A stretch of DNA of 64,000 nucleotides from Tricholomella constricta (lineage: Eukaryota > Basidiomycota > Agaricomycetes > Agaricales > Lyophyllaceae). A model generated the notes under the pieces. The model worked only from the letters and a program-made list of their open reading frames with translations. It had not been told where the DNA came from and did not search any database. The stretch spans positions 1,240,001-1,304,000 of the forward strand of contig JAACJP010000004.1 in the NCBI GenBank assembly GCA_013368375.1, in the 5' to 3' direction. Made by a program: the position numbers and the translations under genes. Shown here in pieces: positions 28,819-36,100 of this stretch (position 1 is the stretch's first letter; each line of letters opens with the position of its first letter).

Positions 28819-30355
28819 ATGTCCACCGATACCCTTCGCAATCGTTACCAAGCTGCTGGCCAGGATCATCTCCTCACATTCTGGTCTCAACTCTCTTCTG
28901 CCGAGCAGGAGGCCCTCGCCGCCCAACTCGATGCACTCGATATTGAACGCGTTAATCGCATCTACAATAAAGCTGTCGGCTCAGAATCTGGAGCTTTGAG
29001 CCCCATCTCAGCCTCGGCAACAATAGAGCCTCTACCTAAAGGCGCATCAGAGTCGGTTGGCACACCTGAAAAGGACGAAGAATGGCGGCGGATTGGTTTG
29101 GAGGCGATTGGACGTGGCGAAGTTGGTGTTCTTTTGATGGCAGGCGGTCAAGGGACACGGCTTGGTAGCTCCGCGCCTAAGGGTTGCTACGATATCGGCT
29201 TGCCATCCCACAAATCCCTCTTCCAATATCAGGCGGAACGCATCGCCCGTTTGCAGACCGTCGCTGAACAAGAGGTCGGCAAGCCTGCCGGTTCTGTCGT
29301 GATTCCCTGGTATGTGATGACCAGTGGACCTACTCGTCAGGATACAGAAAGCTTTTTCGCCTCAAACTCCTACTTTGGGCTGGATCCCAGAAACGTAATC
29401 CTTTTCGAACAAGGTCAGGAAACATCTCATGCTTCATGACAGTTAACTTACCCTGTGGACGAGATTAGGTACATTACCCTGTCTTACAAATGACGGCAAA
29501 GTGCTGCTTGAGAGTCCCTATCGCGTCGCAGTCGCCCCTGATGGCAATGGCGGCCTCTACGCCGCTACTCGTTCCCCCCTGTCTGCTGAAGACAAATTAC
29601 ACACCGTCCTTTCCGATCTCGCCAAGCGGAAAGTCCTTTACGTACATGCGTACTGTGTCGACAACTGCCTCGTGCGCGTTGCCGACCCTGTTTTCCTCGG
29701 TTACAGTATTCAGAAACAGGCGGACTGCGCTGCTAAGGTTGTCCCCAAATCACACCCCACCGAATCCGTGGGCGTCGTCGCGTACCGCGACTCGAAGTTC
29801 AGCGTCGTCGAATACTCGGAAATCACCAAGGAGCAGGCAGAGCGACGCGATCCCGAGACCGGCGAGCTTTCCTTCCGCGCCGGAAATATCGCGAACCACT
29901 TCTACACCACCGCGTTCCTAAACCAAGTCGAGACATTCGAGGAGGAGCTCGCATTCCATATCGCACGGAAGAAAATATCCCACGTTGATCTAGAGACGAA
30001 GGAGCTAGTCAAGCCGGACAAGCCTAACGGAATGAAACTCGAGATGTTCGTGTTTGATGTGTTCCCTTTTACGGAACGCTTTTCCGTGCTGGAAGTGGCG
30101 AGGGACGAAGAGTTCAGCCCCCTGAAGAATGCACGCGGGACAGGTTCTGATGATCCGGAAACCAGTCGTCACGATCTGCTTGCGCAGCACAGGAGGTTCT
30201 TGGAGCGGGCGGGAGCGACAGTCAAGGAGGGCGTTGAGATTGAGATCTCCCCTCTTGTGAGCTACGCAGGTGAAGGTTTGGAGAGTGTGAAGGGCAAGAC
30301 ACTCACGAAGTCGGGGTTTGTCGAGAATGTCGAGGAACTTGACATTTTAGCATAG
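28819..30355 (+). CDS. UAP1: UDP-N-acetylglucosamine pyrophosphorylase
   Basis: It forms UDP-GlcNAc from GlcNAc-1-phosphate and UTP, the chitin and N-glycan donor. Two exons, 28819-29413 and 29469-30355, join EQG to TLPCLTNDGK. Motifs: the nucleotide-binding LLMAGGQGTRLGSSAPKG, KSLFQYQAERI, WYVMTSGPT, then DGNGGLYAA, VHAYCVDNCLVRVADPVFLG, NIANHFYT and the LEMFVFDVFP segment. The length, about 495 residues, is usual. The ATG at 28819 sits in an ACCACCACC leader and is preferred to the upstream in-frame ATG at 28792. Confidence 0.96.
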
Positions 30356-30525: not shown

Positions 30526-32672
30526 TCAACCGCCTACAGGACCATCACCGAGCTTCTTCGTTCCCCGGGGTCCTTTCCTTTCCAACTCTTCTCGGAGAGA
30601 GGCGAAGAGACGCTGCGTGCGTTCAGCGTTTGGCTTTTGTATTATCTGAATTAGTCCTCCTTTCAGAACATCGATGCAGGATGCCCTAGATATTCGCACC
30701 TCTTTACAACACGTAATCAATTTGTCGATGAGCATTGTCTGCCCGTTCTGTGCATCTTCCAAATCCTTTCTGAGTTGCTGGTTCTACGGTGGGGCAGGTA
30801 GCGCAGAGGAAAGAATCGAACCTGAGAAATGGAAATGCTAACTATCATGCGGACAGACGCATACCTCATCTTCCTGTTTGTCTGCACGAACTTTCTCGCC
30901 CTCAGCCAGCTGCTTTTGTTCCGCGGCTCGCGCTCTCGAAAGCAGGACTTCAAGTTCTTTGGACCGTATCACGCATTCGAAGTGTTTTTCTCGAAGCTCG
31001 TACTGCCGGAGTACTTCCTTCAATCGTTCTCGTACACTGTGAGCAGTCAATCTGAGGGATAGAATAGCAGCAGATGCAGAAATAACGCACACTCCATCGA
31101 AGATTTCCTCCAGGGTCCTTTTTGCTCTGCTTTTACATAAAAATGGGAACGGAAAATGCGAAAGAACGCGTCTCTCACTCTTTGGGGCTGTCGTTCCAGT
31201 TTTTTCTCAGCTTCTCGCGACGGGGTTCGGCATGCTCGGACTAAAGATGTCGCCCAAGTCGATTTCATGTTCAACGCGGAAATGAATATGTCACTCACCC
31301 ATTCTTCAGGGCCTGGGCCATCCGTCAAATCCATCATCTCCACAGCAAGGATCTCATCACCATCTTCCATACCCGCCTCCTCTGGTGTCTGCTCTGCTTC
31401 TACACTTCTTCCATTGTGCGTGAAGATAAACTGCATTGTAGGAGACGTCACGGTCGATCCTGACGGCTGAGTACTCGCCGCTTCGGATTTTGCAGACCCA
31501 TTCATTTGATTACCACTCGCTCCGTCACTCCCCTTCTTCCCGGAAGTTGGCCGTTCCATACGTTCTGTCCATGCGTTAAATAGCCTTGATAGTTTCGTCT
31601 TGCGAGAGATCTTGAAAAAGAGTTCTGCGCGGTAGCGGCATACGACTTTGACGACGATGTCGGGCATTTCCCGGTATTTGACATCTTGCAATTTCGCCTT
31701 GTCTGCTCGTTTCGCCAGGTCATTCTTCATCTGCATGAGCTGGAAATGGCTGAATAACACGTCTACGTGGGATGAATGCAAGGGACTACCTCGTCTTGGG
31801 CTTCCTCAACGCTCTGTACAAGCCTTTTTCCGTCTTCCTAATCCTGCTGTTAGAGAGGGGGCCATGATACCGAGGCTTGAGAACCTTACACGTAGCCTCT
31901 TGTTGTCCTGCATACACTGAATTAGTCGTCAGAACGAATCAGGATCCAAGTACGTACTTTCTGCAGTTCACGAGCAAGGTTCTCCATCCTCGTTTTCGTC
32001 TGGTTCGCTTTAGTGAGCTGGCCTTTGGCTTTGAAGGGAATCGAGATGAATTTATGGAAGCTAGGTTTAGAGCTGGTGCAATAGAGTTCACCTGCATCCT
32101 TGTCCTTCAGAAGCTTCTGTTTCTCCTTTGCATGGTCTCGTTCTACCCGCTTTAGTTCTGCAAACTGTACGAGGCAGCGTCAGGTATTGAGCGGGGCTAG
32201 ACCACGTAGTAACAAGTTTACCAGTTCGATGTATTTAGAATGAATGGCGGCTTCCTCCATGCCCTTGACTGACTTGACTGCTTCCTCGGCTAGTAGAGTG
32301 ATAGGAATTACAGCGGGATGAAGTTGAATGGATTGACGCACCAAATCTCCTCTCTTCCTCCTCCTCTAAGACTTCCTCTTCCTCCAAAGCGGCGATCCTA
32401 TTCTTTAAACTCTCGTACATCGTTGCTGGGTCTACCGGCACGTCACTCCTCTTCTTTCCTTTTTGCGCATGATGGTGATGTCCATTTGTACCGGGAGTAT
32501 GATTATGTGGTGGGTTGGGCCGATTAGCTGGTGGTGGATGCGTCGTGTTGATGTGAACTGGAGGTGTCGGCGGTGCAGTGGCAGGCGCTGGCGGAGTAGG
32601 GCCCGCTGGCGATGGTTTTGCTGCCTTGGTAGTCGTTGCATTCTGAGAATGAGTTACGGAGACCCCGTTCAT
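30526..32672 (-). CDS. Taxilin-family coiled-coil protein with an embedded ubiquitin/SUMO-like domain
   Basis: The N-terminus is Pro/His-rich. The taxilin coil follows (KQKLLKDKDA-KGQLTKANQTKTRMENLARELQK, DNKRLR). After KLQDVKYRE the same exon runs without a stop into a SUMO-like fold: VVKVVCRYRAELFFKISRKTKL...TERM, a Ser/Gly-rich loop, then FIFTHNGRSVE...TPEEAGMEDGDEILAVEMMDL. Exons 31234-31179 (HAEPRREKL...) and 31126-31091 (AKRTLEEIFDGV), with a 52-base GT-AG intron between, return in frame to taxilin from 31036: RERLKEVLRQYELREKHFE, SKELEVLLSRARA, DAQNGQTMLIDKLI. It ends RLFASLREELERKG...PVGG. Taxilins bind syntaxins in membrane traffic. The SUMO-like segment has no C-terminal Gly-Gly, so it would act in cis as a binding module. 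Confidence 0.82.
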
Positions 32673-33130: not shown

Positions 33131-36100
33131 ATGGCCAACATCAAGTCGTCTGGCTGGAGATCTCTTCTAAAACCAACTTCTGTTCCTTCACATCGTAATG
33201 CGCAGCCCTGGTAGGCCCTTTGCTGAATGACGATATATTTCTGCTGACCGCTTTTTCTAGACTCCCCATTAAGCTCACCCATTAGGAAGCGCCAACGACT
33301 CTCTTCGCCCACATATGACGAACAACTCGGAGATCTCAGTCAAGCCGACATCGACGCATTTGATAAGATTGAGGCCCAGCTTTCTCAATCTCCGAGGAAG
33401 GGTAGCAGTCAGGTTAAGGCATGTCGTCGGAATCTACAACACGCATCTTCAGGTCAAAACGGTCTACGCTCAGGACCATGACTCAAGGGCTGACTGTTCT
33501 GTCGCAGGTCATAGTAATATCTCTGAACAAAAGAAAGCATTGCCTCTGGCAGACGACCCAGACAACCCCTTTACGACGGGATTCGCAAGCGCGAAGTTCA
33601 CAAATGCCGCGTTTAGTACTACTTCATCGGTCCCGATACCCGGTTTCCTGAAAGCATCTTCCATGCATAACGATTCGATGATGGGAAGCTTCCAGGCTTT
33701 GGACCGTTCTCCCTCACCACAGGAAGAGGACCTCGATGCCTGGTTCAAGCCAACAGAAGCCATACATCCTGTGGCATTCCAAACCGCGTCAGTTGCCTTG
33801 GACTCGACCGAAACTCCAGCCTTCTTTGGATTCGCAAAAGCCTCAAGTCATGGGCTCATTGCGCCTTCCAGCGCGGCTTTTGCTAAAGCTCAGGCCAAGA
33901 TGGAACAAATCTGGCGAGAAGTCGACCAATCTCCGGAAAAATCCTTAGGCTCCAGTTCGTCAACTCCAGCCGCTGCAGACGCCGAAACTGTGTTCAGGCC
34001 TGCATCCACCCCTTCTCTTCAACACTCCCCACGGCGGCCAGCTTTACAATCCGTTGGGAACTCCATCAACACCTTTGGCTTCAACTCTCCTGGCACTCCG
34101 ACACCTTTAGGACATAACCGCGGAACGGGGATCCCACACAAAGCTGCTGTTACCTTGACACCCACAGAGCTACTTATAAGCAAGAACTCTAAACCGTTCA
34201 AGTCTCCGTTGCTCGCCAAGAAACCAATCACGACTAATGCAGACTTTTCGGGATCGCCATTGAAACCAAGTAGCCGCTTTTCTGGATTTTCAACCGCAAG
34301 ATCTCAACATCCACTAGCCTCAGCACCTATCACAGCGAATTCCACATCCATTTCGACCCCCAGCCTTCCGTTAATGGCCACTCCGGCCCGCCATCCCAGA
34401 GTTTCAGCTGCAGGGTCAACTGTCAGAAGACATTCTCCAGCACCATTTGTAACTCCGTTCAAACCAGGCATGAAGCCTGGTCAACCTGGTCGATTGAAGC
34501 TCCTTGAGGAGGCCTTCAAGGCTTCTCAGTTACAACAATTAGTGACGCCTGACAAGAGGAAGGCTGACTGGCTGACGCAAGAAAGACCCGGAGACAAGGC
34601 GGGTCGCGCCTCACGCACAGGAGTCTTCGATCTCAGTATGGCTTCGGGGAATTTTTGTAGAACTACTACTGATATGCACCCATAGCGCCACCTCCAAATC
34701 GCCAAACGTTGGCGTCACTTGGCTTGCTACCTCAGCAATACACAATTGATGAACTTGAGTCCATGGGGATGTAAGTGTCCACCTCCATCTATCCGTTTCT
34801 CTGGCTTATATCTCGTATATTAGAAATTTTAAAGAATTGTCACAAATAACGCCGAAATTGGCAATGTACTATTCATTCCATACTCCCACCGCTACACCTT
34901 TATACCCCCTCACCTCCAGTCCCCCCGTCGTCCTCGGATCTGCACAAGCCTTGGATGCTTTGTTGGACAACGGTTGCTCGTTAGCAACAAAACCTTGGGT
35001 TGACAATCACTGGGGTCTCATTCTTTGGAAGCTTGCAGGAATGGTCGGCCTTGAGCCCCAGCGGGAAAGCATACCAAATCAGAAACGGTGGTGCTGGGCG
35101 GAAGTGATGCGCCAGTTGTTCTACAGGTACTTGATTCAAGGACTAATCAAACAATCATCGCTTACCTCCTTCCCCAGATATGAGCGCGAAATTAACAGGG
35201 CAAAGCGCCCCCCGCTTCGATTAATCACCACACATGATGCCCCTGCAGCCTATCCTATGGTTCTCTGTGTTTCTGATATCACCTGGATAACAGGTGGCTA
35301 TGCGGACGATGGCGGGCCGTTAAAATCGCGTCCGGAACTGGAAGTAACGGACGGATGGTACCGGTTACGAGCCCAAGTTGATGCTCCTCTCGCTCGTGCT
35401 ATAAAGCGAGGCCTCATACGAATCGGGCGGAAACTTACTGTCGCTGGTGCTTATGTTAGTGCCCTTCTCTGTCATTTCATATATCCTCTCACTCCGGACA
35501 TATAGCTATCGTCCGAGAGGAAAGATCCTTCGGAGGTGTTGGAAGCGTACAATTCGGTCAAGTTGGTGATATCAGGCAACTCATCGCACCTGGCGCCTTG
35601 GCATGCAAAACTGGGGTTCAGCCCCGGCCCTTGTATCTCCACGCTGCATAGCCTGACACCTGACGGTGGAATGGTCGCCGCTATGGACATCGTGGTGGTT
35701 AAGGTGGATCCCCAAATTTCTGCTTTACTTGTTCGCTCACCGCTCTTTTTGATTTTTTTGACAGACACATCCCATTGCTTACATCGAATTTATCGAGGAC
35801 GAAAACGGACTTCAAAACCGGGAAGGTCCCATGAACGCGAACGAGGAGGCTACCGCGCATAGAAATTGGAAGGTTTGTGATACTCCTTGTACTACAGGCG
35901 CCTTTCTCACCGTGTTGTTCTTGTAGAAACGATATGAGTTCGAAATGTCGAAACTGCGCGCGGAACTCGAGAAGAAATGGGACCGCTACGAGGGCTATAT
36001 CGAACGCCTGGAGCGAAGGGCTGGTATTGAGGAGTTCCGACCAAGCCAAGACGGTTCGTTCAGCTTTCCATACTTCAAATTTGTCCCTTACATGTCTGCC

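Follow-up and report, generated by a model that had tools for sequence, protein, structure and literature searches.

The taxilin gene at positions 30526-32672 of the reverse strand in a 64,000-nucleotide stretch of Tricholomella constricta (Agaricales, Lyophyllaceae; 44-Mb genome assembly), which is the window analysed here, encodes a SUMO-like ubiquitin-like (UBL) domain in the middle of the taxilin coiled coil. The coil-UBL-coil fusion is confirmed as real and as widely conserved in mushroom-forming fungi, and is not the product of two overlapping genes. We lean towards the view that the domain acts as a built-in dock for SUMO-interacting motifs (SIMs) and is a fixed part of agaricomycete taxilin. 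Databases already contain the fusion, labelled automatically with names like 'Ubiquitin-like domain-containing protein'. Among the open-access papers listed in literature searches none was found to describe it, judged by titles and abstract openings. A preliminary description of the window had noticed the fold within the coil on the same strand and proposed that the locus could make proteins with or without it. As a whole, that interpretation is partly supported.

The rebuilt gene model comprises 12 exons and 507 codons plus a stop, and all of its introns are of the GT-AG type, each 50-81 nt long. Exon 7 (31739-31299, reverse strand, as for all features of the gene) runs in a single stop-free frame from the coil (...KAKLQDVKYRE) into the fold (MPDIVVKV...PEEW), which starts at 31667; this had been read correctly from the beginning. 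Exon 8, encoding the linker SEHAEPRREKLRKNWNDSPKE, also exists, but its previously assigned limits of 31234-31179 are corrected to 31240-31179; a comparable stretch is present in homologues. Removal of intron 8 (31127-31178; 52 nt, GT-AG, phase 2) joins ...SPKE to AKRTLEEIFDGV, where exon 9 resumes the taxilin frame as first described. The best protein match, P0001 of T. constricta (96% over 100% of the query), equals the gene model letter for letter except that the 63-nt intron 3 (32029-32091) is read through. This intron is stop-free and in frame, and is coding in the public T. constricta model.

Pfam searches of the whole protein recover both Taxilin (PF09728, E=1.4e-21, 77.5 bits against a curated cut-off of 30.3) and Rad60-SLD (PF11976, E=1.1e-7, 32.0 bits against 23.8). 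Since both scores exceed the curated cut-offs, the matches are not due to chance, and the fusion first noticed from the sequence alone is borne out. The N-terminal coil (31668-32342; amino acids about 110-227, spanning introns 1-6) matches PF09728 positions 5-106 at amino acids 113-206. The C-terminal coil (30526-31126; from AKRTLEEIFDGV to ...DGPVGG, spanning introns 9-11) matches positions 136-198 at 30862-31035. The UBL domain between them (31323-31667; amino acids 228-342) contains no intron. The insertion point lies near profile positions 107-135, and the inserted domain is about 115 amino acids long. In an alignment of 14 fusion proteins with the UBL cut out and 21 canonical fungal taxilins, the UBL falls in a canonically variable region where several ascomycete taxilins carry G, N or P residues; the insertion is therefore likely to coincide with a break in the coil.

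Both coil parts resemble the taxilin family (PF09728; alpha-, beta- and gamma-taxilin) in sequence, whereas the fusion has the extra SUMO-like domain and shows no match to approximately the final 90 of the 302 profile positions. Counting best stretches only, all three canonical comparators (P0212, P0244 and P0336) cover positions 1-302 and the homologue P0178 covers 115-210; the window protein covers 5-106 and 136-198. The taxilin-domain matches of the fusion proteins thus stop at 198-210, which leaves the domain short of about its final third. For this reason functions inferred from animal taxilin are not simply transferable to mushrooms. Syntaxin binding is reported for animal alpha-taxilin in the accessible part of PMC3972091. 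Searches of the T. constricta genome by family, by a canonical protein and by the protein itself detected a single taxilin locus. Further taxilin-search matches were weak (E 0.41-0.69), and one further match to the protein itself (E 0.045) lay in its N-terminal low-complexity stretch; a weak relative could be missed because the genome search was exon-wise and six-frame.

The fusion is not confined to T. constricta. With the 507-residue protein as query, the order N-coil, both parts of the UBL, C-coil was found in 120 of 120 homologues (the best 120 of 276 matches). One of these, P0099, lacks PF11976 in the precomputed Pfam column although both UBL parts are present. The named homologues include Rickenella (Hymenochaetales) and species that we take to belong to Agaricales, Boletales, Polyporales, Russulales and other orders. 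The second search used six homologues from which the UBL had been removed, and restricted the length to favour UBL-less taxilins; among its 120 listed matches (the best 120 of 160), 115 were new relative to the first. All four segments (N-coil, two UBL parts, C-coil) were present in 41 of the 115. Four showed both coils without the UBL (P0148 Ceratobasidium, P0179 Tulasnella, P0212 Cetraspora and P0215 Racocetra), and one, P0149 of Rhizoctonia, both coils with the first UBL part only. The remainder were partial: four combined both UBL parts with the C-coil, two the N-coil with both UBL parts, one the N-coil with the first UBL part, and 15 the second UBL part with the C-coil, and 47 matched in the C-coil alone. 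The fusion occurs in Cantharellales too (P0178 of Tulasnella, and P0147, P0153 and P0181 of Rhizoctonia and Ceratobasidium). A third search, started from a Glomeromycota taxilin, found PF11976 in none of 120 canonical fungal taxilins (the best 120 of 1073), in agreement with the preliminary remark that taxilins are not known to have a ubiquitin-like domain. No Tremellomycetes, Dacrymycetes, Ustilaginomycotina or Pucciniomycotina were recognised among the named entries of the three sets of best matches, in which many entries are unnamed.

In Amanita inopinata the N-coil with UBL and the C-coil are separate models (P0152 and P0157) with distant gene numbers, AX17_000267 and AX17_000378, one ending and the other starting near intron 7. 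A split gene, a rearrangement or a misassembly are all possible.

The inserted segment is predicted to adopt a beta-grasp fold closest to SUMO, as had been anticipated. Residue statistics were taken over 167 homologous proteins and 83 aligned positions. The loop between alpha1 and beta3 (31437-31553) is of low complexity, has a predicted local distance difference test (pLDDT) score under 50 at residues 42-74, and varies in length from 1 to 66 residues with a median of 35. Twelve of the 83 positions are invariant; the first UBL part contributes F18, R22, K23, L29, R36 and M37, and the second F7, D29, E35, D38, L39 and T40. Five of them (F18, R22, K23, L29 and R36) fall in the segment at 31560-31619, together with I20, which is identical in 163 of the 167 proteins. 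We take K23, L29 and R36 to be among the residues lining the groove by which SUMO binds SIMs. In our own alignment F18 corresponds to SUMO3 F32 and R22 to SUMO3 R36, both in 167/167, while I20 corresponds to SUMO3 I34 and is Ile in 163 and Val in 4. SUMO3 Q31, F32, I34, K35 and R36 are described, in the available portion of PMC12077520, as groove residues mutated in the QFI and IKR variants. The UBL thus seems to keep most of the SIM-binding groove; binding itself is something we infer.

At the end of the fold, where SUMO has its Gly-Gly tail, the UBL carries a SIM-like tail, EMMDLTD (31320-31340); a peptide representing the tail is AVEMMDLTDGPGPEEW. The pattern [VI]-E-psi-psi-D-L-T is found in all 167 proteins, as is [LMIF][MLV]DLT directly after the fold, and the following 15 residues are on average 35% D/E. 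By comparison, [LMIV][MLIV]DLT is found in none of the 120 best-matching canonical taxilins. In the UBL model the last strand covers residues 105-111 and the tail motif 110-116, and most of the motif therefore lies beyond the strand, in the place taken by the flexible tail in SUMO. The motif is like the PIAS-type SIM (VIDLT) in its psi-psi-D-L-T core followed by acidic residues, and differs in sitting right after the last UBL strand and in having Met (161/167) in place of the PIAS1 Ile. VIDLT is the PIAS1 SIM, and peptides with an (I/V)DLT core are said in the accessible text of PMC4907222 to prefer SUMO2/3. Because no Gly-Gly directly follows the fold in any of the 167 proteins, the domain is not conjugable in the SUMO way, and a conjugated modifier is rejected. 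The lack of this end had already been taken to indicate a module acting in cis. Beside its internal position, the missing Gly-Gly and the long variable loop after alpha1, the UBL differs from SUMO/Smt3 in having no acid at the Ubc9-contact position.

At 30526-30534 the full-length protein terminates in -DGPVGG. Such a GG end is found in 90 of 161 fusion proteins and a single terminal G in 13 more, truncated models included, compared with 0/120 and 7/120 of the canonical taxilins. A role of this -VGG as a modifier tail was set aside because it lies about 165 residues past the UBL, behind a long predicted helix. The GG end may instead act as a degron at the C-terminus or as a docking tail.

The docking reading starts from the architecture of the protein, its conservation, the predicted fold, the absence of Gly-Gly, the inclusion of the UBL in the listed open reading frames (ORFs) and the single detectable gene copy; what we infer beyond these is SIM binding, the partners and the place in the cell. 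A SUMO-derived domain would have become fixed at a flexible break in mid-coil early in Agaricomycetes or before. It is unable to enter SUMO conjugation, lacks the Ubc9-binding acid of Rad60 and Esc2, and seems mostly to retain the groove. The UBL would then most likely bring SIM-bearing partners to a taxilin rod on membranes or microtubules. Possible ligands of its SIM-like tail are free SUMO, some sumoylated protein and the UBL of a second taxilin molecule. Several points weigh against this reading. The position of SUMO3 K35 (S21 in the UBL) is Ser in 161/167, and that of SUMO3 Q31 (residue 17) is F or Y in 165/167. The 167 sequences share common ancestry (125 differ from one another in the first part of the UBL), and constraint on the fold may account for some of the groove conservation. 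The psi-psi-D-L-T tail might have a structural role, which is the conclusion reached in the available part of PMC2946365 for the SIM-like C-terminal sequence of the second SUMO-like domain of Rad60.

It is possible, though unlikely, that the UBL binds nothing and is only a folded hinge or spacer, keeping the coil halves apart or letting them fold back as an antiparallel hairpin. Its location at the coil break of canonical taxilins agrees with such a role, and in the full-length AlphaFold2 (AF2) model of homologue P0003 the UBL is flanked by equally long helices (123-225 and 366-468). The predicted template modelling (pTM) score of that model, on the other hand, is only 0.30, so that the hairpin is hypothetical, and a spacer would need neither the invariant groove residues nor the invariant D-L-T tail.

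The combination of groove and tail also admits a stronger form of the docking reading, which we regard as a long shot. The UBL would be a self-complementary SUMO mimic, the tail of one taxilin occupying the SIM groove of the next, with the rods joined end to end or clustered in a non-covalent, poly-SUMO-like chain. Free SUMO or SIM proteins could compete for these contacts, and through this competition SUMO signalling in mushroom-forming fungi would be coupled to scaffolds of membrane traffic.

We give little credence to the proposal that alternative splicing or intron retention yields taxilin with and without the UBL. The gene structure does permit it. Exon 7 holds three GT[AG]NG sites, one of which is the GTATGC at 31638-31643 suggested as a skipping donor. 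A skip from 31643 (placed earlier at about 31635) to the exon start at 31240 keeps the frame as claimed, and no transcript-type support for use of this donor was found among the listed homologues. Retention of intron 8 ends the protein one residue after SPKE, also as predicted. The skip, however, would require an intron of 403 nt, unlike the 50-81 nt introns of this gene, and the retention stop is a simple effect of a GA|GTGAG donor in phase 2. Among the other introns, retention of seven of ten (1, 2, 4, 5, 6, 7 and 10) likewise truncates the protein, and retention of introns 3, 9 and 11 leaves the frame open.

Listed homologues found only in the sources labelled lgn, jgi and ena, which we read as assembled metagenomes or transcriptomes and whose gene-calling methods are not known to us, contain the UBL in 42 of 42 cases spanning both coils. 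The gap between UBL and C-coil is 15-45 residues in 39 of the 42, and P0197, P0200 and P0213 resemble unspliced reads. Five proteins (P0069, P0078, P0125, P0126 and P0143) are probably derived from cDNA because their contigs are shorter than the ORF plus the expected introns, counted at 45 nt each on the pattern of the T. constricta gene with intron density assumed to be conserved; the margin by which P0078 passes this comparison is 36 nt. All listed proteins that have both coils but lack a complete UBL come from named NCBI records. Four automated gene models count in favour of a splice switch and against a fixed domain: P0148 and P0179 lack the whole UBL, P0149 lacks part of it, and P0165 of Antrodiella ends in ...NWTENPRE at the site equivalent to intron 8. 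The P0148 model passes from ADIVVK directly to an exon further downstream and so leaves out the UBL, a pattern close to the proposed skip. Models P0147, P0153 and P0178 of the same genera keep the UBL, and P0148, P0149 and P0179 may reflect either faulty prediction or genuine variation. Any agaricomycete isoform without the UBL would be expected to rank high in the second search, and among the matches listed there only the gene models named above did so. Among the listed homologues no transcript-type evidence was found for a skipped product or for one ending at SPKE. These sequences suggest that taxilin from this gene normally carries the UBL, and the idea of two kinds of product from one locus found no support beyond these gene models.

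Still less probable is a Rad60/Esc2-type module that recruits Ubc9 for local sumoylation, to which membership of the UBL in PF11976 would point. The RENi proteins (Rad60, Esc2 and NIP45) are described in the accessible part of PMC2946365 as having two SUMO-like domains at the C-terminus. They share with the taxilin fusion a non-conjugated SUMO-like domain within a longer protein, whereas the fusion has one internal domain, central in the coil, and lacks the Ubc9-binding acid. An acid is needed for Ubc9 binding at Rad60 E380 and Esc2 D430, according to the available text of PMC7891725. In our alignment an acidic residue occupies this position in 0/167 proteins, the residues being N in 108, G in 23, S in 17, A in 14, M in 3, Q in 1 and K in 1. 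Within the T. constricta genome the UBL is closer to SUMO (25/67) than to the Rad60-like ORF (7/13 in a local match), these being two of the 22 UBL-like places found. Given 0/167 acidic residues, this module was rejected as the leading explanation. An independent gene lying within taxilin, or a fusion created by annotation error, is a barely credible source of the segment and was rejected. The segment does begin with Met and meets a stop after SPKE on intron read-through, but the coil and the fold are encoded by a single exon in one frame with no GT at the junction, and ORFs on short contigs span coil-UBL-coil continuously. Met precedes PDIV in just 122/167 proteins; 44 others have S, Q, A, T, P, K, V or D at this position, and one was unmatched. 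This Met is therefore no conserved start codon.

Downstream, taxilin converges with an open frame at 29447-30355 (forward strand) of the UDP-sugar pyrophosphorylase family (PF01704, E 9.3e-23), 170 bases away. A long open frame at 33273-34685 (forward strand) lies head to head with taxilin and has no Pfam match. GFASAKF/GFAKASS-type stretches recur in it and may resemble BRCA2 repeats. Elsewhere in the genome, places of equal score occur in pairs on different contigs (C1:1892306-1892704 with C27:440738-441136, which also have equal open frames, and ubiquitin-type repeats on C13 and C23), which suggests duplicated or haplotype contigs in the assembly.

Most SUMO biology takes place in the nucleus, and most of it concerns conjugation. 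The gene described here places a SUMO-derived fold without a conjugation end inside the sole taxilin detected in the genome, and this arrangement is kept in the listed agaricomycete homologues. If the domain does dock SIMs, a vesicle or microtubule scaffold would be linked to SUMO-type recognition, and these fungi would offer a natural test of the role of the SUMO groove apart from conjugation.
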